A stretch of DNA of 64,000 nucleotides from a virus (IMGVR_UViG_3300032323_000670:1-64000); one strand, 5' to 3'; positions 1,642-25,175 are shown, counted from the first letter of the stretch. The notes: generated by a model from the sequence alone, not told the origin. Numbers and translations: made by a program.

Positions 1642-4389
1642 TTATTTCTTTTTATCTTTCTTATCCTCACCTTTGTCAAATTTGTTCTTATTCTCACGTG
1701 CAATCTGTAATTGAGTCTGTGCTATTTCACGTTGAGTATTAAGTTTTTGCTGTTCAATATTCATTTTATCTCTATGCTCCATCTGCTTGACAGTCTCTTT
1801 CTCTCTGTTTAGATTCATAGTTTGAGCATACTGATCGCTCTTCTCCATTCTATCCAGATAATCAATGTAGTCACTCTCTTGGTTTTGGTTAACGTCTTGC
1901 ATTGCACCATAACCAGCAGATCTAATTTGAGCTTCAAGAATTCTAGCTTCTCTATCTTTCTGATTCTCAGCAGCTTCAAACTCAAGTTTCTGACGTTGTT
2001 CTTCAGCCTTAGCTTGTAACTGTTGTTCTTGCATTTGTTGAGCTTGTTGCATTTCAGCTTGTTTCTCAGCTTTTTGCTTAGCTTCAGATGCTTTAAGAAT
2101 AGTAGATACTTCAGCAATAGATTCAGAACGCAATACATTACCTATATCATAGATAGATGCACCAGTTGTATTATTCTGAATAGCCATTTGCTTAAGCTGT
2201 TCTAGCGTAGCTCTATGGTCAGCTTTAGTAGTACAGAATATATTAAGGTCTCTTAGCAATAGATCAGTACCATTTATCTCAAAGTTCTTACGCTCATCCA
2301 TTGATGTAACGTATTGTAACCTTGTAGATGGTTTAGTGGACTGATAATACTGTGCTAAGTCTGTGCGCATCTGATGCACGCGAGGCATCAAATAATCACA
2401 GTGTTGTATAAAGTAAGTTTCAGTTTGTGCATAAGAAGCACTTACTGCTTGTTCAATTCCAGTAGCTGTATTGGTTTGTCCAATCTGCTGACCTAGACGC
2501 TGTGGTGTAATACCTATTACTTCAAATGCTTGTTGCTTAAAATAATTAGCTAACTGAATACGAGACATCAAACGGTTAGTCTGCTCAAGGTCAAGTTTCT
2601 GATAGTGTTGGAAAGCAAGCGCATTCTCTGTATTGGTAATAGAAGTATCCAACGGTAACATCTGGAAGTTCTTCATTGCCACATAAGCCTTGGCTAGGTT
2701 GTTCTTTCCCCAGTCTTCTCCTAATGAGTGTCTAGGTAAAGCATTCTGGTCAAGTAGGATTACGGTTCCTAATTCATCTACTAAGATATCTGCAATCTGA
2801 TTGTTTACAATGTTGTATCCAATCTGGAAAGGTTTCATTAAATCAATAAGAGCTGTAGATCTCGTATTACGGTCTGTAAATACAGCACCTTCTATAGGAA
2901 GTTTACAACCATACATTGAGTTATCACCCTTGAATTGAAACTTAAGTGGGTTAATCAAGTTCTGATTGATTCCTAAGTAGATAGGGTTAATACCACCCGG
3001 GTTATTACTTCCCCAGAATGTAGGACGGTTTGGTCCAATCTTAACACCACCCCATACCTCATTAATCCAGATCCAATCTATGTGCTCACCAAATACTAAG
3101 TTATCCTTACTCTTATTCTTAAGAATATTTGTATTATAAACCGGTTTATCTACAACTACATATGTTTCATCAATTATATCTTGAGATACATTACCATTAT
3201 CCGATATGCGGGTTAAGTGACCGATTCTACGTTGTGATTTCCAGTAAACTGTGGTAACACGTAACATGTTACTCATACCTAAATCAAAGTAGTCTTCACT
3301 GCTCATCATAATCCAGTTTACTATATCACCTCCATAGTAGGCATTATCCCACATAGAGGTAAACTGACGGTAACCTAATGATGGCATTTTAGTATTCCAC
3401 TCGTGAGACTTGGTAGCATCATAGTAAGATCCATCATTCTGATAACCTTGGATAGGATAACCAGCAGAACGTACAGGGTAGATAAGCTCAAGAGCTTTCA
3501 TTTGATCCTCTGTCATTAACCAACCATACTTATCAATAACATCAGATACAGTCATCATGTCAAACTTACCTGCCCACTGAGCTTGTGATACATAACGAGT
3601 ATCAGGTGACTTCTGATAGAATGTAAGAACCGGATTCCATAACTCTACATCATAATCATCTTCAAGCATCTTAAAGTGCCAGAACTCACGGTCAGTAATT
3701 AACATATCACGGAAACCTCTCTCCTCAAGCTCATCCATTTTAAAACGCTCAACATCAACTCTATGCTGGTGTTCAGCCCATTGCTCTACCATACTGCGGT
3801 AGTCCTTATTAAAAAACTGTTGAATTTCTGGTAAAGTCTTAAGGTTATCAGGAGACATCTTTTGCTGATACTCCTCTGACTTAGGATCCATTTCAGCTAG
3901 AGCCATTGCCATCTTTTGCTCAGCTTCAAATAAAAGAACTTCTTCTACTTGAGTTCTTTTAAGCTCAAGCATTTCATTATATGAATACTCATCAACTGCT
4001 GTATAGCTTACACGCGTATTGCGTTTTGCAAACTCTGAAACAAGAGTATTAATTACATTAGGAATGATAGGGTAGAACTTTAACTCAAGTGCAGATGCAT
4101 CCTCTTTAGTTAAAGTATCAATAAGATCAGCATACTCATTGTCATCTTCTACAATGTAGTCAGTCTTATCTATAATACCCTTTGCAAGTTTATAGTTTTT
4201 CATGAGTCTGCGTGCATTTCTGCGCACTTGCTTAAGACCTTCCCACTCTAACCAGTCAAGGTTCCAAGCAGCCCACTCTTGATCTTTTTTCTTTTTTGGC
4301 AAAAACTGAACAGGCTGATTGAGAGTACCCATACGGTTGTACTCACCCTTAGCCCCATTCTTTAATTGCATCGCATTATATACCTGCAT
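1642..4389 (-). CDS. Portal protein
   Basis: 915 aa, the size expected for portals of crAss-like and other large phages. It would form the dodecameric channel at the capsid vertex used for DNA packaging. The N-terminal half is rich in aromatic and acidic residues, as in portal crown and wing domains. The C-terminal quarter (about residues 760-915) is a long Q/E/K-rich coiled coil. It follows the terminase gene with one base between them and precedes the scaffold. Identification rests on size, architecture and the conserved terminase-portal-scaffold order. No frameshift is visible. Confidence 0.75.
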   Translation of the reverse strand: MQVYNAMQLKNGAKGEYNRMGTLNQPVQFLPKKKKDQEWAAWNLDWLEWEGLKQVRRNARRLMKNYKLAKGIIDKTDYIVEDDNEYADLIDTLTKEDASALELKFYPIIPNVINTLVSEFAKRNTRVSYTAVDEYSYNEMLELKRTQVEEVLLFEAEQKMAMALAEMDPKSEEYQQKMSPDNLKTLPEIQQFFNKDYRSMVEQWAEHQHRVDVERFKMDELEERGFRDMLITDREFWHFKMLEDDYDVELWNPVLTFYQKSPDTRYVSQAQWAGKFDMMTVSDVIDKYGWLMTEDQMKALELIYPVRSAGYPIQGYQNDGSYYDATKSHEWNTKMPSLGYRQFTSMWDNAYYGGDIVNWIMMSSEDYFDLGMSNMLRVTTVYWKSQRRIGHLTRISDNGNVSQDIIDETYVVVDKPVYNTNILKNKSKDNLVFGEHIDWIWINEVWGGVKIGPNRPTFWGSNNPGGINPIYLGINQNLINPLKFQFKGDNSMYGCKLPIEGAVFTDRNTRSTALIDLMKPFQIGYNIVNNQIADILVDELGTVILLDQNALPRHSLGEDWGKNNLAKAYVAMKNFQMLPLDTSITNTENALAFQHYQKLDLEQTNRLMSRIQLANYFKQQAFEVIGITPQRLGQQIGQTNTATGIEQAVSASYAQTETYFIQHCDYLMPRVHQMRTDLAQYYQSTKPSTRLQYVTSMDERKNFEINGTDLLLRDLNIFCTTKADHRATLEQLKQMAIQNNTTGASIYDIGNVLRSESIAEVSTILKASEAKQKAEKQAEMQQAQQMQEQQLQAKAEEQRQKLEFEAAENQKDREARILEAQIRSAGYGAMQDVNQNQESDYIDYLDRMEKSDQYAQTMNLNREKETVKQMEHRDKMNIEQQKLNTQREIAQTQLQIARENKNKFDKGEDKKDKKK

Positions 4390-13729: not shown

Positions 13730-14512
13730 TTATCTAGCAATCCAACCAAATGTAAGAATACCTGAACTTGTAGCGTTAGACTGTACAGCTCTTATACTTA
13801 TATTACTACCATTTGTAACAAGTACAAAAAATATAAAAGTATATATTCCAGCTGCACTGCCCGCTGGTATCGTATAAACAGGGGGTAAAGCATTACCGTT
13901 AACCATTAAGGATAATGCCATTGAACCTGTCATTGTACCGGCTGTTCTAACATATACATTTTGTAAAGCACCTTGTGAAAGAGTTACGGGTACAGATCTA
14001 TTTGTTTCTGTTGTATTGGAAGTACTTGAACCAATTCCTATAAAATTTGTTCCTACAGGTATAGTTGTTCCATTTAAGTTACCAGCCATGCTGTATCCGT
14101 TATAGGTAGGTACATTTTGACTTGTTTCAAAATTAAAATAACAAGTTGTACCATTTAATGTAGTAGCATCAATACCTACATAGCTCATTGCACCAAAAAG
14201 GACGTATGTTGAAAAATAGCCTGTATTAACTACACTAGTTAGCATTATTAAGTAAGTACCCGATGCTGTAAATATACTAATAGGTTGACCGTTTACAGTA
14301 TTTAAAAAATCAGACATGGCATAACCATCTGCATTGGTTCTGCTTATAACCATTCCGCTAAAGTCTGCACCTCCTTCACCATTATCATAATATAAAAAAA
14401 TAGCCTCTCCTGCTGCAGGTATAGGTGACGGATTAACACCAAACCAAACTGATACATTATACTTAAACCCCGTAGGTACGGACTTAGATACTGTTGTTAT
14501 CTGCGTCCCCAT
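13730..14512 (-). CDS. Virion appendage protein, beta-rich
   Basis: 260 aa, rich in Gly, Ser, Thr and Asn with alternating hydrophobic residues, ending in the compact motif GILTFGWIAR. No signal peptide or catalytic motif. It lies between fibre-type genes with a two-base gap upstream. Composition is like receptor-binding tips or adaptor proteins. Function inferred only. Confidence 0.5.
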   Translation of the reverse strand: MGTQITTVSKSVPTGFKYNVSVWFGVNPSPIPAAGEAIFLYYDNGEGGADFSGMVISRTNADGYAMSDFLNTVNGQPISIFTASGTYLIMLTSVVNTGYFSTYVLFGAMSYVGIDATTLNGTTCYFNFETSQNVPTYNGYSMAGNLNGTTIPVGTNFIGIGSSTSNTTETNRSVPVTLSQGALQNVYVRTAGTMTGSMALSLMVNGNALPPVYTIPAGSAAGIYTFIFFVLVTNGSNISIRAVQSNATSSGILTFGWIAR

Positions 14513-14514
14513 AA

Positions 14515-15354
14515 TTACGCAATTGAGATAATTAATAACTCTCCACCTGCTCCTGTAGCATTGTAAGATACAGAACCTAAAGTATTATTAATAGCTCCTG
14601 CGTCAAAGCTTATTGTTTCACCTGGCTTTAATATAATACCACCAACTGTTGCGTTAATAGTTCCTACATTAGCAAATGACATAGAGTATCTACCTGCTGG
14701 TATAGTACCAGATAATCCCGCAGGTCTTAGGAAAGTAGGAGTTCTTTGAACACCTGTTCCTCCATCTACTGTTAATGAACCTCCACCATCTGAGATATGA
14801 ACATGTCCATTTGAACCCACATCAATAGTTTGCTGAATCCCTCCTGCTGTAACACCCGCTATAACAAAAGATTTTGGAGGTGCAGCAGTCCCATCTGTTC
14901 CTACGCAATCATCTATAAGCTCAACGCTAGTTTGAATACTATCAAGAATAACATTACCCTCTTTAATAGCTCCATATATAAGTGCTAATGCACCAGAAGG
15001 ATCTGTATATACTAAACATCCCGGGGTACCTGCCCCTGGAGGAACCACAGGTGTTGCACTGTCTGGTAGATAATATGTAATTGGACCCCAATCAGATGTA
15101 TCAGGATTCCATACCCTTACCTCTAAGTATACTGTATCATCATTGCAGGTATCTACTACAAACTTAGCTTCATACTCTGTACTAGCTTGAAGTGTAGTAA
15201 GTATTGATGAAAGTAAAAATTCTACATCATCGGTATTAGCATCAATATTTTTAAGTTGATCACAAGTACACTGAAGTCCTTGTAATACTTTTAACTCGTA
15301 GTTAAAGTTAGAGCCTTTATCTCCTTCTTTTGGGTTTCCGTTTCCTAGTGCCAT
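14515..15354 (-). CDS. Virion appendage protein
   Basis: 279 aa. The N-terminal 100 residues are helical with CTCDQLKN and a strand segment; the middle has PVVPPGAGTPGC; the C-terminal half is Gly-rich (SDGGGSLTVDGGTG, then PAGRYSMSFANVGT) and ends in a strand-loop-strand (NNTLGSVSYNATG). The layout is a helical anchor followed by a beta tip. Probably part of the tail appendage, unassigned. Confidence 0.5.
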   Translation of the reverse strand: MALGNGNPKEGDKGSNFNYELKVLQGLQCTCDQLKNIDANTDDVEFLLSSILTTLQASTEYEAKFVVDTCNDDTVYLEVRVWNPDTSDWGPITYYLPDSATPVVPPGAGTPGCLVYTDPSGALALIYGAIKEGNVILDSIQTSVELIDDCVGTDGTAAPPKSFVIAGVTAGGIQQTIDVGSNGHVHISDGGGSLTVDGGTGVQRTPTFLRPAGLSGTIPAGRYSMSFANVGTINATVGGIILKPGETISFDAGAINNTLGSVSYNATGAGGELLIISIA

Positions 15355-15356
15355 AA

Positions 15357-15719
15357 TTAAAATCTTATTTGATAGTGATTACCTATTTCAGCTTCTGAAG
15401 AACCTATTCTATAGTTAATAATACCTGTTGTTTCCTCCTCTGTTACAATAGCATCAACTGCAATAAGCTTGTAGAATTCTCCTTCTTTAACTTCTGGTTT
15501 ATGTTGAGCATATACAGAATCTAATGATACTGTTTCCTCTGCTGTTGCAACTAAAGTAGGATTAGCAAGCATAAAAGCTTTTACTGTTTCTAATAAAGCT
15601 TCTTTTGCTGCAGCATCCTCAGGATTCTCAGATTTTAATAATTCTAACTCTGCTTCAGTGTAAGCATAAGTATTAGGGGTAGTCCATTGACCTTCTATTC
15701 TAGATGTAAATGTTTTCAT
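15357..15719 (-). CDS. Small appendage-operon protein
   Basis: 120 aa, acidic, predominantly helical in the first two thirds (LLKSENPEDAAAKEALLETVKAFM), then strands ending IGNHYQIRF. No motif recognised. Two- to three-base gaps on both sides place it firmly in the operon. It could be a fibre-assembly factor. Confidence 0.5.
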   Translation of the reverse strand: MKTFTSRIEGQWTTPNTYAYTEAELELLKSENPEDAAAKEALLETVKAFMLANPTLVATAEETVSLDSVYAQHKPEVKEGEFYKLIAVDAIVTEEETTGIINYRIGSSEAEIGNHYQIRF

Positions 15720-15721
15720 AA

Positions 15722-17383
15722 TTATATAGTTTGAACTGTTAATCCTGAGTTAATACAAAGAACTGCTTTAGCCACGGGTCCTGGTGTTGTATAAAAACTA
15801 CCATTGGTTTTATGGCAATATAAGGCTTTACCTGTAAGATTAGATGTTGCTGACACATCCATATTACCAAAAGAATCAGCATCGGATACACAATTATAAA
15901 AAGAACCCGAGGCGTTAGGAGTACCTAAAAACACAGAACCAAAAGCATTTCTCCCTGTAGAAATACAACTTACAAAGGTACCTGTAGCATCTTGACTAGC
16001 ACCGCTAGAACTAACTCCAAATGCTACACCTCCTAAAAAACCAGGTTTACCCGATGTGCAATTTGTAAAAATACCTGATGCAAATGAACCAAAACATCTT
16101 TGTCCTGCTCTACAGTTAGTAAATATACCAGCAGTATTTGTACCAGCAAGACTGAAAGGATTAAATCCAAAACTTTCATCACCTGCTTCACAGTTAGTAA
16201 ATATACCAGTGAGACTTCCACTGCCAACTGTAGACCCAAAAGACTGATTTCCTGCTGAGCAATTAATAAATGTACCCTGTAGAGAAAATGTACCTGTTCC
16301 GGCAGCACCACTTATATAACCAAATGATTGACCGGGAGTAAAACCAAAACCTCTAGTTTTACAATTGGTAAATACACTTCGCGTGTTTATACTAACGGTA
16401 CCTGTGCCATTATTATTACTTGATGTGCAAAAAGAGCTATTTCCGTTAATAGTACTACAATCTGTAAAAATAGTATCAAATATAATACAAGTTCTAGTGA
16501 CGGCACCAAATGAGGTAGCGCCAGCTGTACAATTTCTAAATGTACTCGATTGTATATAAACATCAATATTATTAGGTGATGATACACTACCAAATGAAAA
16601 GGCGTTCGCTGTACAGTTTTCAAAATTACCCTGAATAATTAAAGGAAAAGTTCCTGATAAAATAATAGGATTTTGCGGTGGCAAAATAACATTTGGAGGT
16701 AAAAAACCTGTTTCCATAGCACACCCAAATGATAAAAAACCCGCTACGCAGTTTTTAAATGATCCAGATATAGTAATAGCTGCACCAAATGAATAATCAC
16801 CTGCTAGACAGTTTTCAAAATAAGCGGTAACATTATAGTTAGTATCACTTCCTAATAATATTTGACCATAGTTACCAAGACCTACTGATGGTGCACTTTG
16901 TGTATTCAGTCCCTTATAAGTACCGTAATTACCACCAACTGAAAATGTGCTAATAACAACATCTGGCTCTCCTGTTAGAGAAATCATGTTAATGTAATCG
17001 CCCGTAAGTTCCCATCCATAGGTAGCATTATAAGCGCGCATGTCATAAGTACCCGGGCCTATGATTACACTAAATTCATTACCCTGACCTCTAGGATTAC
17101 CATAAGGTGTTGAAGCTAATGCTACATCATATGCTGCTTTAAGTTCTGCACCGTTTACAGTAGGATCATCGCTATTTCCTGTTACAAAGATGTATGATTC
17201 ACCTTGAAGACCACCTATAGCTTTTGCAAAGTCTTCTACAGTCATACCATATGACTGGTATTTATCTCCGCGTTTAGCGAATGATACATTGCTACCTAGA
17301 ATAACAAGATCTTGTGCAGGATCTTGTACTTCTTTTTTTATTAGTCTGTTTTTGAGTAAGTATACCCAGTTTAAAATGTCCAT
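15722..17383 (-). CDS. Repeat-rich appendage protein with shared N-terminal anchor
   Basis: 553 aa. The first ~60 residues (MDILNWVYLLKNRLI, ending near DFAKAIGG) are a module shared with the next two genes. After a linker, residues ~190-530 hold about 12 tandem units of the pattern xFxNCxAGxxSFG, each 20-40 residues long, with a Cys and a Phe-Gly at fixed places. This is the signature of a right-handed beta-helix, as in tailspikes and polysaccharide-binding fibres. No depolymerase active site can be assigned by eye. Likely a receptor-binding or glycan-degrading appendage. Confidence 0.65.
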   Translation of the reverse strand: MDILNWVYLLKNRLIKKEVQDPAQDLVILGSNVSFAKRGDKYQSYGMTVEDFAKAIGGLQGESYIFVTGNSDDPTVNGAELKAAYDVALASTPYGNPRGQGNEFSVIIGPGTYDMRAYNATYGWELTGDYINMISLTGEPDVVISTFSVGGNYGTYKGLNTQSAPSVGLGNYGQILLGSDTNYNVTAYFENCLAGDYSFGAAITISGSFKNCVAGFLSFGCAMETGFLPPNVILPPQNPIILSGTFPLIIQGNFENCTANAFSFGSVSSPNNIDVYIQSSTFRNCTAGATSFGAVTRTCIIFDTIFTDCSTINGNSSFCTSSNNNGTGTVSINTRSVFTNCKTRGFGFTPGQSFGYISGAAGTGTFSLQGTFINCSAGNQSFGSTVGSGSLTGIFTNCEAGDESFGFNPFSLAGTNTAGIFTNCRAGQRCFGSFASGIFTNCTSGKPGFLGGVAFGVSSSGASQDATGTFVSCISTGRNAFGSVFLGTPNASGSFYNCVSDADSFGNMDVSATSNLTGKALYCHKTNGSFYTTPGPVAKAVLCINSGLTVQTI

Positions 17384-21551: not shown

Positions 21552-21826
21552 CTTGTAACAAATTTAGGGTAAAATTGTTACCACACTAAAGTATGTTTTA
21601 TTAGTCATTAACCCCAGTTTTCCTGGATAATGTATAGTATACCATACTATAATGTGGTTTATAAGAAACAAAAAACCTCATTTTTATACCCTGTAAGGGA
21701 TGTTATCCTGCATGGAGAATATACTCCGTACCCTGAAGGGTATTAGTTAGATGTGGTTTATAACATCTGTCACATATATATGCTAAATTTGTGACGCAAA
21801 TATCTACTATACTTGCGACAAGCATT

Positions 21827-21899
21827 GTGGAAAATACTCAACAGAATCAGGGTTTTAGTGGAAAATAATCCCCAACCCCCTATGGCTTAGTGGAAAATA
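21827..21899 (+). repeat. Three iteron-like repeats GTGGAAAATA
   Basis: Exact copies of GTGGAAAATA start at 21827, 21858 and 21890. The last two share the longer core TTAGTGGAAAATA. Start-to-start spacing is 31 and 32 bases, close to three turns of B-DNA, so bound proteins would sit on one face of the helix. This is typical of replication iterons or operator arrays. Confidence 0.6.
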
Positions 21900-21976
21900 T
21901 TTGCCAAACTCCGTAACAAAACATGGACAAACTCGGAAGTTTCCCGAGTTACTGCATGAATTTTTCCAGATTTTAC

Positions 21977-22032
21977 ATGCAGATACATATAGTATTACCG
22001 TATCACCCCTTATCTATATGCAGGTACATATA
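21977..22032 (+). repeat. Paired direct repeat ATGCAGRTACATATA
   Basis: ATGCAGATACATATA (21977-21991) and ATGCAGGTACATATA (22018-22032) differ at one base in 15 and are 41 bases apart, about four helical turns. They lie just downstream of the GTGGAAAATA set and may form a second protein-binding site in the control region. Confidence 0.5.
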
Positions 22033-22461
22033 AGAATGTCAAGTTTATTGCGCAAAAAACTGGACATATCTACCTAGGGACAACCTATCCCCAGGGGCAT
22101 CTAAGAGATTCGCCTACCCCCGGTACTAAGGTTATGTGGGGACACCCCCTATAGATGGCTAACAGGAGGGATGGTGTTTGGGATTTATAATGTAGGAGGG
22201 AGAGTGTGGGGTGTTATATATTACAACCCCGGCAAAACTTTCCAAAGGGGTCACCCCCCTGTTGTTCTGCAAGAGATATCTCTATGTATAGACATGATTG
22301 CAAAAAATATTACTGGTAGAAAAGTTCTTGCTGTGCTTGGATGGGTTAGCCTATGCTGTGACTGTGACTGTGCAGAGACCAAGACTCTATGTATGTGACA
22401 GGAGGGAGCGAGCGAGGCAAGACTATATGTATCAAACTCCTTACTGTTATTAAATATATAT

Positions 22462-22716
22462 ATGAACAATCCATTTACTTGTGAGCTGACACATGAACAG
22501 CAAGTTATGAACAGCGGTGGCAAATGCTTAGGCTGTTCAAGTGACACTGAACCTATTGTTGGCATGGAGCCAATAGACGGTCCAGACGGTACACCTGTTG
22601 CTGTAGCGTATAGCCTTGAGGGCTATGACCGCTATTGTCACGGTTGTGCAAGCTCATTGACGCAAGTCATATATGAGCCACAACCTGTTATCACTGATGA
22701 TGAGCTCCCTTTCTAG
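22462..22716 (+). CDS. Small zinc-finger-like protein, cassette 1
   Basis: 84 aa with CLGC near 24-27 and CHGC near 66-69, a pair of CxxC knuckles that can hold one zinc. Acidic C-terminus DDELPF. First gene of the promoter-terminator cassette array, so probably expressed very early. Its stop codon lies in the loop of a terminator hairpin. Function unknown; a host-takeover protein is plausible. Confidence 0.6.
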   Translation: MNNPFTCELTHEQQVMNSGGKCLGCSSDTEPIVGMEPIDGPDGTPVAVAYSLEGYDRYCHGCASSLTQVIYEPQPVITDDELPF

Positions 22717-22726
22717 GGGGTTCATC
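22699..22726 (+). terminator. Terminator of cassette 1
   Basis: 12-bp hairpin (22699-22710 with 22715-22726, two G-T wobbles) with a four-base loop. The TAG stop begins in the loop. It is followed only by a short mixed T stretch, so termination strength is uncertain. Confidence 0.5.
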
Positions 22727-22767
22727 TCTTGTATAGTTAACTCCTTACTTTAATTAATAAATACATT

Positions 22768-22983
22768 ATGAAAACTTCAATTGAAATTATTGATGACATC
22801 ACCATTGAGTTGATGCAGTTAAACCGTGCTCAAGCTGTAGCAAGAGACGAGGACAAGTCTTACTTCCAAGGTATGATAGACGCTTTAAACAATAAGCGTG
22901 ATGACCTAATGCTTGATGTTAGGCATCATTCAAAGAAGATAGCAATCATTCTTGATGCACTAACAAAAGAAGACATTGATTGA
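22768..22983 (+). CDS. Small helical protein, cassette 2
   Basis: 71 aa, almost all alpha-helical with charged heptads (MQLNRAQAVARDEDKSYF), no signal peptide. Own AACTCCTTACT 18 bases before the ATG and own terminator after the stop. No family recognised. Confidence 0.55.
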   Translation: MKTSIEIIDDITIELMQLNRAQAVARDEDKSYFQGMIDALNNKRDDLMLDVRHHSKKIAIILDALTKEDID

Positions 22984-22987
22984 TGAG

Positions 22988-23005
22988 AGGGGCTCTGCCC
23001 CTTTT
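22988..23005 (+). terminator. Terminator of cassette 2
   Basis: Perfect hairpin AGGGGC-TCT-GCCCCT followed by TTT, four bases after the stop codon. A clear intrinsic terminator. Confidence 0.75.
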
Positions 23006-23050
23006 AAACTCTTTATCATAAACTCCTTACTTTATTTAATAATAAACAAA

Positions 23051-23233
23051 ATGAAAAGACTCGGATTAATTGTGGCTATTATAGCCAACCTTGACTCACT
23101 TGCTTTAGTGATTCTATCAGCATCAATGTCAAATGTATCAGAGGATGGAAGACTCCTCGGGATTATACTTGGTGTATTATGTTGGATTGCTACTGCTTAT
23201 GTAGTTTACTTGAGTGTAAATGAAGAGCGTTAA
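23051..23233 (+). CDS. Small two-span membrane protein, cassette 3
   Basis: 60 aa starting MKRLGLIVAIIANLDS. Two hydrophobic segments (near residues 5-25 and 34-54) separated by a short charged loop, ending NEER. The start is the ATG 19 bases after the AACTCCTTACT motif. Likely inserted in the inner membrane; possible early host-envelope or exclusion factor. Its stop overlaps the next gene. Confidence 0.55.
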   Translation: MKRLGLIVAIIANLDSLALVILSASMSNVSEDGRLLGIILGVLCWIATAYVVYLSVNEER

Positions 23234-23369
23234 GACTATCTTGAGGGTACTGAAGAAACGGTACCCTCAAGACTTCATTAGAGACCTTCGGGTTAATGAT
23301 GATGATACTGTGACCTTTAAGGTTGTGAGGAAGGATGATACGTGGAGAGAGATAACAGAGCAGGTCTAA
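23220..23369 (+). CDS. Tiny basic protein overlapping cassette 3
   Basis: 49 aa, MKSVKTILRVLKKRYPQDF to REITEQV, basic N-terminus then a strand pair. It overlaps the membrane-protein gene by 14 bases. A perfect 10-bp inverted repeat TTGAGGGTAC/GTACCCTCAA (23241-23270) lies inside it, so its mRNA would fold strongly just after the start. Its stop is the loop of the next terminator. Coding is likely from codon pattern but unproven. Confidence 0.5.
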   Translation: MKSVKTILRVLKKRYPQDFIRDLRVNDDDTVTFKVVRKDDTWREITEQV

Positions 23370-23382
23370 AGACCTGTTTTGT
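23361..23382 (+). terminator. Terminator of cassette 3
   Basis: CAGGTC-TAAA-GACCTG followed by TTTTGTTTTT. The stop codon TAA is the hairpin loop itself. Confidence 0.8.
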
Positions 23383-23470
23383 TTTTGTGTAGGGGTGATA
23401 GGTTTGTATTTTTTACTATCACCTCTCTTCCTTCACGCACCATAAACTCCTTACTTTCCTTAATGCAAAT

Positions 23471-23641
23471 ATGAAGTACAAAGTCCAATTTGAAATTGTT
23501 GATGTTGGCTTACTGCCAAAGATGCAACAGAAGATAAACACTTGGTTGACAACAGGTCATCTCAAGAAGTTTGAAATGCATGTTCTTGATGAAAGAAAGG
23601 TGCTGTTCAACCTATGTGTTATGAAAAAGGAGGGTGAATAA
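23471..23641 (+). CDS. Small protein, cassette 4
   Basis: 56 aa, MKYKVQFEIVDVGLLPKM to MKKEGE, with a beta-alpha-alpha-beta pattern (KKFEMHVLDERKVLFNLCV). Small enough to be a one-domain inhibitor or regulator. The AACTCCTTACT motif lies 15 bases upstream. The stop sits between the arms of a terminator. No family recognised. Confidence 0.5.
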   Translation: MKYKVQFEIVDVGLLPKMQQKINTWLTTGHLKKFEMHVLDERKVLFNLCVMKKEGE

Positions 23642-23656
23642 CCTCCTTTTTCTTTT
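23623..23656 (+). terminator. Terminator of cassette 4
   Basis: AAAAAGGAGG pairs with CCTCCTTTTT across a loop holding the TAA stop, followed by a T-rich run. Confidence 0.75.
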
Positions 23657-23691
23657 ATTTAAAACTCCTTACTATAACTAATAATACAACT

Positions 23692-23856
23692 ATGAAGAAA
23701 TCAACTGCTTATGTGTTGCTATACTGTGCAACCATTCTATTTGTGGCATTCTTGTCCTCTTGTCAGACACGTACAGTTGTACGTCCTAATCCTTGTCCAA
23801 GCTTTGACAAGAAGCAGAGCAGAGACATGCCATACTCACACCCAACATGGAGATAG
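23692..23856 (+). CDS. Small lipoprotein, cassette 5
   Basis: 54 aa. A hydrophobic N-terminal segment ends in the lipobox FLSSC, predicting cleavage before Cys24 and lipid attachment. The mature part is only about 30 residues (QTRTVVRPNPCPSFDKKQSR). Short phage lipoproteins often block superinfection or modify the envelope; this is inference. Own leader motif 18 bases upstream. Confidence 0.6.
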   Translation: MKKSTAYVLLYCATILFVAFLSSCQTRTVVRPNPCPSFDKKQSRDMPYSHPTWR

Positions 23857-23868
23857 GGGGAAACCCTT
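23852..23868 (+). terminator. Weak hairpin after cassette 5
   Basis: AGGG pairs with CCCT around GGAAA, overlapping the TAG stop, then TTATTT. Short stem, so it is a weaker terminator candidate than the others in the array. Confidence 0.4.
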
Positions 23869-23913
23869 ATTTCCAATCTGTTAAACTCCTTACTATACTT
23901 AATAATAATTCTT

Positions 23914-24237
23914 ATGAAAAACTTATCAGAAATTGCAATCAATGCATTCAAACAAGGGTCAGACAACTATGGTGAAAAACCAACAGGTGAAGTTAGACCA
24001 CTACGCAAGACAGTCTACAGGGAAGGTACAATCTTCTTTGATACAGAGTTCGTAGGTTGGGACCATTATTCTTGTACTGTTATGTTAGTTCAACCTGATG
24101 GACACCCGTGCACTTCAGGTATTGGGTTCTATGTTAAAGACGGTCAGATGCAAGTATGCTCAGGGCATATAGTATTTACACTGCCTGTAACCGATGAAAT
24201 TCAAGCAGAACTTGACAGTGCAGAATTGTCAAACTGA
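23914..24237 (+). CDS. Unknown protein, cassette 6
   Basis: 107 aa, mixed alpha/beta. The first 30 residues are helical and polar, then beta-rich (GTIFFDTEFVGWDHYSCTVMLV) with an acidic C-terminus. No signal or motif. Leader motif 19 bases upstream and a strong hairpin after the stop. Confidence 0.55.
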   Translation: MKNLSEIAINAFKQGSDNYGEKPTGEVRPLRKTVYREGTIFFDTEFVGWDHYSCTVMLVQPDGHPCTSGIGFYVKDGQMQVCSGHIVFTLPVTDEIQAELDSAELSN

Positions 24238-24240
24238 TAG

Positions 24241-24266
24241 CATAGCCTCCGTAACAGGGGGCTATG
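24241..24266 (+). terminator. Terminator of cassette 6
   Basis: Ten-bp hairpin CATAGCCTCC / GGGGGCTATG with one wobble and loop GTAACA, four bases after the stop. Only a short T run follows. Confidence 0.6.
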
Positions 24267-24310
24267 TTCCAATCTAATGAAACTCCTTACTTTAACTAAT
24301 TATAACTCTT

Positions 24311-24586
24311 ATGAAAAATGTATTAGACCAATTGTGTGAGACTGCTGTTGACACACTAAAGATGAAAATTGAATGGCGTAAAACCCGTATTGCTGAATCT
24401 GAACGAGCATTGCTTGCTAAAGTTTTAGGTGATAATAGCGGGGACTATACCATTGAGCAAACTTGTGCAGGACTTGCAACACTGCGTAGTACACTTGCTG
24501 AATTGGAGCGCTTGCTTGCATCATTGCAACCACCTGTTCCTGAACCTGCACCCATCAAGCGTGGCAGACCAAGCAAGAAGAAATAA
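24311..24586 (+). CDS. Coiled-coil protein with AT-hook-like tail, cassette 7
   Basis: 91 aa. A helical charged body with leucine spacing (LATLRSTLAELERLLASL) is followed by a Pro-rich linker and the tail KRGRPSKKK, which contains the AT-hook core GRP. It may bind the minor groove of AT-rich DNA. Leader motif 19 bases upstream. Confidence 0.6.
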   Translation: MKNVLDQLCETAVDTLKMKIEWRKTRIAESERALLAKVLGDNSGDYTIEQTCAGLATLRSTLAELERLLASLQPPVPEPAPIKRGRPSKKK

Positions 24587-24617
24587 GAGTAGGGCCTTCG
24601 GGCTCACTCTTTTCTCA
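24586..24617 (+). terminator. Terminator of cassette 7
   Basis: AGAGT(A)GGGCC-TTCG-GGCTCACTCT: ten pairs with one bulged A and a C-UUCG-G tetraloop, then TTTTCTC. It starts at the last base of the TAA stop. Confidence 0.75.
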
Positions 24618-24656
24618 CTCAATGAAACTCCTTACTTTCTTTAACTTAAATCTCTT

Positions 24657-24962
24657 ATGAAACAAGAACAACCAATCTTAGCCTGCGCGGGCAGAGAAGC
24701 AGTATCAATTGATTCTGCATTATTAAAGGAACTGTTAAACAGTTTCACACCTAACACCATTGGTATCAGAGCAAAGGCAGAGCATGTAGCACAAGCCTTA
24801 CATTCGGTAGCATATGGTGAATATGGTGAGCATAGCCTTGAGAAATTCAAGGAGATTATCACCACCGAGTTCTTATCAGTTCAATTGATGGAAGCAAGCA
24901 AACTTGCGAGACAGTCATCTGCGGATGCTGTTGCTGATATGCCATCATTGGATTATATGTAA
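24657..24962 (+). CDS. Unknown helical protein, cassette 8
   Basis: 101 aa, alpha-helical, no signal peptide, ending SADAVADMPSLDYM. No family recognised. Leader motif 20 bases upstream; terminator 18 bases after the stop. Confidence 0.55.
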   Translation: MKQEQPILACAGREAVSIDSALLKELLNSFTPNTIGIRAKAEHVAQALHSVAYGEYGEHSLEKFKEIITTEFLSVQLMEASKLARQSSADAVADMPSLDYM

Positions 24963-24980
24963 CTCGTTACTAACACAAAG

Positions 24981-25014
24981 ACAGGGTGCCCCAATGTGGG
25001 TGCTCTGTTCTTTT
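24981..25014 (+). terminator. Terminator of cassette 8
   Basis: 11-bp hairpin ACAGGGTGCCC / GGGTGCTCTGT with three G-T wobbles and loop CAATGT, followed by TCTTTT. Confidence 0.7.
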
Positions 25015-25043
25015 CCTCTTCCCACCGAGTGAAACTCCTTACT

Positions 25044-25120
25044 ATTCTTAACAAGTATTCTGTGCCACCTCACACATAACCTACACATTGGGGTTGTGCT
25101 ACACGATACTTGTTTTCCTA
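25044..25120 (+). ncRNA. Candidate small RNA behind a cassette promoter
   Basis: The ninth AACTCCTTACT is not followed by a reading frame. Instead a 9-bp stem AACAAGTAT / ATACTTGTT (25050-25058 with 25106-25114) encloses an inner hairpin AACC / GGTT (25078-25081 with 25092-25095) extended by CAC/GTG, then TTTT. The tenth motif starts 15 bases later. This spacing and fold suggest a free-standing regulatory RNA of about 75 bases. No known family is recognised. Confidence 0.5.
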
Positions 25121-25175
25121 CTCTGTGAAACTCCTTACTTTTTCTAATCATTATTTACTTAAACCCTTAAACGCA

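Follow-up and report, generated by a model that had tools for sequence, protein, structure and literature searches.

The DNA analysed here is a viral stretch of 64,000 nucleotides (nt) (IMGVR_UViG_3300032323_000670:1-64000, hereafter the window), part of a 115,976-bp record (genome G000) whose last 124 bases are identical to its first 124; the genome is therefore a complete circle or terminally redundant. From position 22435 onwards the window carries a block of small plus-strand genes, most of them preceded by an exact copy of an 11-base motif, AACTCCTTACT, with a second box shortly downstream. Copy 1 (22435-22454, second box TTAAA) lies before the gene at 22462-22716, copy 2 (22739-22757, TTAAT) before 22768-22983, copy 3 (23021-23039, TTAAT) before 23051-23233, copy 4 (23445-23463, TTAAT) before 23471-23641, copy 5 (23663-23681, CTAAT) before 23692-23856, copy 6 (23884-23902, TTAAT) before 23914-24237, copy 7 (24281-24299, CTAAT) before 24311-24586 and copy 8 (24626-24644, TTAAC) before 24657-24962. 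Copy 9 (25033-25051, TTAAC) has no open reading frame (ORF) 3' of it, and copy 10 (25129-25147, CTAAT) precedes the gene at 25176-25604. The distance from the end of the motif to the ATG is 16, 18, 19, 15, 18, 19, 19 and 20 nt for copies 1 to 8 and 36 nt for copy 10; a sequence-only reading of the same DNA, which had reported ten exact copies within 2.7 kb, eight of them 15-20 bases before an ATG, was right in both respects. Its description of one copy per gene holds for most of the block: copy 9 precedes a hairpin unit instead, and a 49-amino-acid (aa) ORF at 23220-23369 lacks one. A one-mismatch copy, AACTCGTTACT (24961-24971, plus strand), overlaps a stop codon, likewise with no ORF 3' of it, and is probably a decayed site or a chance match.

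All ten copies are on the plus strand, and no other exact copy occurs on either strand of the 115,976-bp record, for which a third-order Markov model predicts 0.165 over both strands; the reversed-pattern control also gave none. The motif is thus absent outside the array in exact form, where an equal density had been named beforehand as the outcome that would count against a promoter array. When one mismatch is allowed, AACTCCTTACT has 12 matches in the window, compared with 2.2 +/- 1.5 in shuffled sequences. The aligned sites read AAACTCCTTACT-tTnn-YTAAY, the T, T, A and A columns of the tail being fully conserved, so that the tail previously written TNNYTAAT does contain a second box but is better spelled in this form. 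The motif also differs, as claimed, from the host TAnnTTTG box, which is found at 1 of the 10 array sites (-60 to +40). Outside the array this box occurs at 6 of 33 genes preceded by a gap, versus 1.7 for shuffled sequences (at most 6 in 500 of them), which lends weak support to its proposed use there. Sigma-70-like sites in the array region occur at shuffle level only.

Relatives were gathered through the DUF2828/DUF7788 gene that lies 3' of the array, an array gene, the portal gene and a metallophosphoesterase gene. Five of them carry an equivalent block, each with a motif of its own: AACTCTTTACT ten times in L114, AAGTCCTTAAT 13 times in L115, ACATCTTATTAC 11 times in L155, CAACTTTATAA eight times in L123 and ATAACCTATTA six times in G001/L162. 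There are no exact cross-matches between the six arrays, and an ungapped alignment made by hand leaves only A2, C6 and T8 common to all six motifs; in a de novo motif search, the five arrays tested scored far above shuffles. As in G000, exact copies are confined to the array in G011 (the L115 phage, 113.8 kb) and in G001 (103 kb); genome-wide confinement covers these three genomes, L114, L155 and L123 being contigs of 20-24 kb. Related genes can stand behind different motifs: the 107-aa protein encoded at 23914-24237 in G000 shares 92% identity with its L115 orthologue and 58% with that of L155, the three genes having three different motifs upstream, and the gene at 24657 has a counterpart in G001, similar as judged by eye, behind TATAACCTATTA. 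The copies of a block have changed together, as expected for sites read by one trans-acting factor.

Two earlier ideas were given up. That the motif is restricted to one phage was dropped once the de novo search had found other motifs at the same place; the exact motif with its tail, searched across all viral contigs, matched 29 stretches once each and gave no second array, and one-mismatch matches to AACTCCTTACT in portal relatives were at background only. The other idea started from CTCCTTACT, which looks similar to the 16S anti-Shine-Dalgarno tail; no such similarity is seen in the more distant motifs, and for this reason it was not retained.

The genes between the copies differ strongly among relatives, as exchangeable cassettes would, and the copies might then be sites of recombination or cassette exchange, or leftovers of duplication. 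We consider this very improbable: the copies share a single orientation and a fixed spacing to the second box and the gene start, their flanks and genes are unrelated, which argues that they are not duplications, and no recombinase was found among the family matches. Orthologues do take the motif of the resident genome, but this is explained by selection for the local reader and not by site exchange.

A simple scan detected 10 terminator-like sites in the array, versus 2.1 +/- 1.2 in shuffles, and seven of the ten are plus-strand hairpins, located between genes or where the array ends. They lie before copy 2 (22699-22726), copy 3 (22984-23006), copy 4 (23354-23383, with a T-run), copy 5 (23623-23652, also with a T-run), copy 8 (24592-24605) and copy 9 (24980-25009), and a last one (25608-25641) forms the closing element. 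Across five arrays, a hairpin and a T-rich stretch stand immediately 5' of 43 of the 65 motif copies, a feature present at 10-17% of random array positions and 6-10% elsewhere; in G000, L114 and L115 this hairpin is missing before the first copy of the array. Since intrinsic terminators precede most copies, the array reads as a succession of one-gene units in the order terminator, motif, gene. Should transcripts end just 5' of the motif, a new transcript must start at the motif or after it. On this sequence evidence, AAACTCCTTACT-n4-YTAAY is very probably a promoter. The phage-specific promoter proposed in the sequence-only reading finds strong sequence support in the terminators, in the own motifs of the five relatives and in a non-coding unit with its own copy.

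This unit lies behind copy 9, where the segment 25050-25114 (plus strand, 65 nt) folds into a hairpin with a 10-bp terminal helix, followed by TTTT (z = -3.5 versus mononucleotide shuffles); it is a putative small RNA made from that copy. L114, L115, L155, L123 and G001 likewise have a motif copy with no ORF nearby, and the segments after it are self-complementary. The terminal helix starts about 7 nt past the motif in G000, L114 and L155, which would fit a start near the second box, albeit weakly because the offset differs in L115, L123 and G001. A search of Rfam returned no family for the RNA units of the array regions. Separately, an RNA-like, multi-branched element of about 103 nt, made of a terminal helix and four arms with conserved loops, was seen at L115:4067-4170, L123:4656-4758 (also in L170) and L171:232-334; in L123/L170 it lies immediately 3' of a motif copy. 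It has no Rfam match, and a model built from the three sequences finds no further cases and none in the window's genome.

The DUF2828/DUF7788 gene (27270-28661, plus strand), which has no motif copy, encodes a Ro-like protein (phrog_850, 'RNA-binding protein'); its relatives are annotated 'Ro-like RNA binding protein', and it shows a short, weak match to the TROVE protein of crAss001. The hairpin units were considered as possible Y-RNA-like partners of this protein. The nearby RNA-binding protein gene and the fixed short spacing to the start codons would also suit a motif that acts in RNA: in the leader of transcripts started elsewhere, it would serve translation or mRNA processing, with the Ro-like protein as one conceivable ligand. 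Such a role seems improbable, given that terminators lie immediately 5' of most copies and that non-coding units carry a copy too; moreover, it would need a fast-changing binding partner, whereas phages with different motifs have Ro-like proteins of 84-89% identity. The placement of the terminators is the main argument in favour of a promoter over an RNA element.

As the sequence-only reading had supposed, this is a crAss-like phage with a homologue of a virion RNA polymerase. The portal matches phrog_6547 (E=4e-90) and many crAss-like records at 22-27% identity, and the terminase matches phrog_6681 (E=5e-58). Among named phages, the portal (1642-4389) has its best relative in Leptolyngbya phage Lbo-JY46, whose recorded host is a cyanobacterium, which is unusual for a crAss-like phage; the de novo motif search gave nothing clear in Lbo-JY46. 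Three giant ORFs of 1849, 4163 and 2603 aa adjoin one another. Part of the 1849-aa ORF lies in the window (62201-64000, minus strand), next to the 4163-aa polymerase ORF, which is outside it (record 67747-80238, minus strand). The core of the latter matches phi14:2 gp66 (E=1e-23 in a direct comparison), and a visual alignment places its SGGDFDIDK (DFDIDK at residue 2248) on the corresponding stretch of the phi14:2, crAss001 and DAC15 polymerases; Pfam and PHROGs give no polymerase family, and a single-sequence search of solved structures was empty. Between G000 and G011 the polymerase core is 47% identical and the portal 87%, which makes the polymerase a candidate for a fast-changing reader. 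The array genes are probably early, by analogy rather than measurement: this rests on the layout and on expression papers on crAss001, whose genes expressed within 10 min include that of a TROVE-domain protein (PMC8375218). All together, we favour an early promoter that is probably read by the phage's own virion RNA polymerase, the gp66 homologue.

Several observations weigh against this interpretation. Neither the site at 25033 nor that at 24961 is followed by an ORF. While G000, G011 and G001 have both the polymerase and an array, the polymerase is present but no array was detected in G002-G005, G013 and G014, in a search that single promoters would escape, and G010 and G012, which also have the polymerase, show a weak T-rich motif at most. 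The de novo motif search found no uniform motif in the early regions of phi14:2, crAss001 and DAC15. Of the polymerase-bearing relatives without an array, those tested are also without a counterpart of the array gene 23914-24237, and a few promoters placed before operons could have been missed in them.

The several polymerase-bearing relatives without a visible array also count in favour of another explanation, in which it is the host RNA polymerase that reads the promoter, under the direction of a phage factor (sigma-like or an activator) or of an alternative sigma factor of the host. This would accord with the many small early proteins without a known family, and with the apparently ordinary TTGACA promoter used by a tandem block in another phage, L149. 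Yet the ORFs scanned in the window yielded no recognisable sigma factor and no second polymerase, an absence of family match and not proof of absence; the motif resembles neither TAnnTTTG nor a sigma-70 promoter; and the early genes need to be read before phage factors exist. A host factor, moreover, poorly explains why every related phage should have a motif of its own, unless these phages infect different hosts. We therefore regard a redirected host polymerase as unlikely, but as the most serious competitor of the virion polymerase.

Among the closest known systems is that of phi14:2, whose polymerase is carried in the virion and produces early transcripts resistant to rifampicin (PMC10136315, PMC7886860). 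Its gp66 (Drobysheva et al. 2021, via PMC10136315, PMC7886860) is a giant homologous polymerase with a DFDID core, and a small-gene block stands in early position; unlike the phage studied here, phi14:2 has no uniform motif in its early region by the same search. Promoters with a motif are already known for a virion polymerase, that of the Thermus phage P23-45 (gp96), where an AT-rich conserved motif precedes the pre-early genes (PMC10770324). Both systems have a two-barrel virion polymerase and a short motif before such genes, and enzyme-bearing relatives of P23-45 have the motif as well (PMC10770324). These relatives share a similar motif, whereas here every relative has its own; and the terminators of P23-45 contain a special motif of 26 nt, in contrast to the ordinary-looking hairpins of this phage (PMC10770324).

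An N4-type hairpin promoter was rejected, as the motif is not self-complementary and no hairpin overlaps it. Promoters of coliphage N4 depend on the extrusion of a hairpin with its centre at -11, and the polymerase of N4 has a T7-like fold. N4 is alike in that its early genes stand behind promoters for an injected polymerase, and these early promoters use extruded hairpins (PMC4496689). The hairpins of the array differ from those of N4: they vary in sequence, look terminator-like and are missing at the first copy.

In the mechanism that we propose, AAACTCCTTACT-n4-YTAAY would serve as an early promoter before nearly every gene of the small-gene block. Its 12-nt box would be the recognition element and the YTAA box, 5-8 nt downstream, the melting and start region; a start at the YTAA box would leave messenger RNA leaders of only about 10 nt. 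The reader would be the 4163-aa two-barrel enzyme, injected with the DNA, and later genes may be served by host promoters of the TAnnTTTG type. In the relatives, the layout would have been kept and the motif shifted jointly with a fast-evolving reader. For a broader generalization we see about equal grounds for and against: that crAss-like virion polymerases read a short duplex promoter that drifts with the enzyme, and that early genes for host takeover, together with small structured RNAs, travel as self-contained terminator-promoter-gene units in which the promoter has been re-tuned to the polymerase of the resident phage. How these polymerases choose start sites is undescribed in the literature covered, which excludes the original phi14:2 polymerase paper; a review of the Crassvirales does not mention promoters. 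Six versions of the promoter occur in nature, and for three of the phages the polymerase sequence is known, which makes a preference of each enzyme for its own motif directly testable. In uncultured phages, such arrays also help to locate the early genes, whose products may act in host takeover and anti-defence, and they would supply new orthogonal promoter-polymerase pairs.

Some minor observations concern other sites in these genomes. In the relatives L113 (6740-7660) and L116 (6520-7790), which have no clear array, CTTTTTTAATTAAT lies directly 3' of terminator hairpins before several genes and might be the array promoter in a decayed or T-rich form. L149, a different phage that has a Ro-like gene, has TTGACACCTCCTCCTAAAGCATATAGAAT six times at 13763-16182, four copies lying 6 nt before an ORF start; this tandem block appears to sit behind an ordinary sigma-70 promoter. 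Degenerate motif-like copies (CTCCTTACG) are found at 25690 and 25915 of the window, in the long gap 3' of the array, with comparable ones at about 8550 in L114 and at 8466 in L115; the next gene is about 80-345 nt further on, and they could be weaker promoters with long leaders. Finally, the roughly 880 bp 5' of the first motif copy (window 21552-22434) hold no convincing gene, and stretches of it, for example CCAAACTCCGTAACAAAACATGGACAAACTCGGAAG, resemble the same place in L113 and L116; this may possibly be an origin, packaging or entry-end region.
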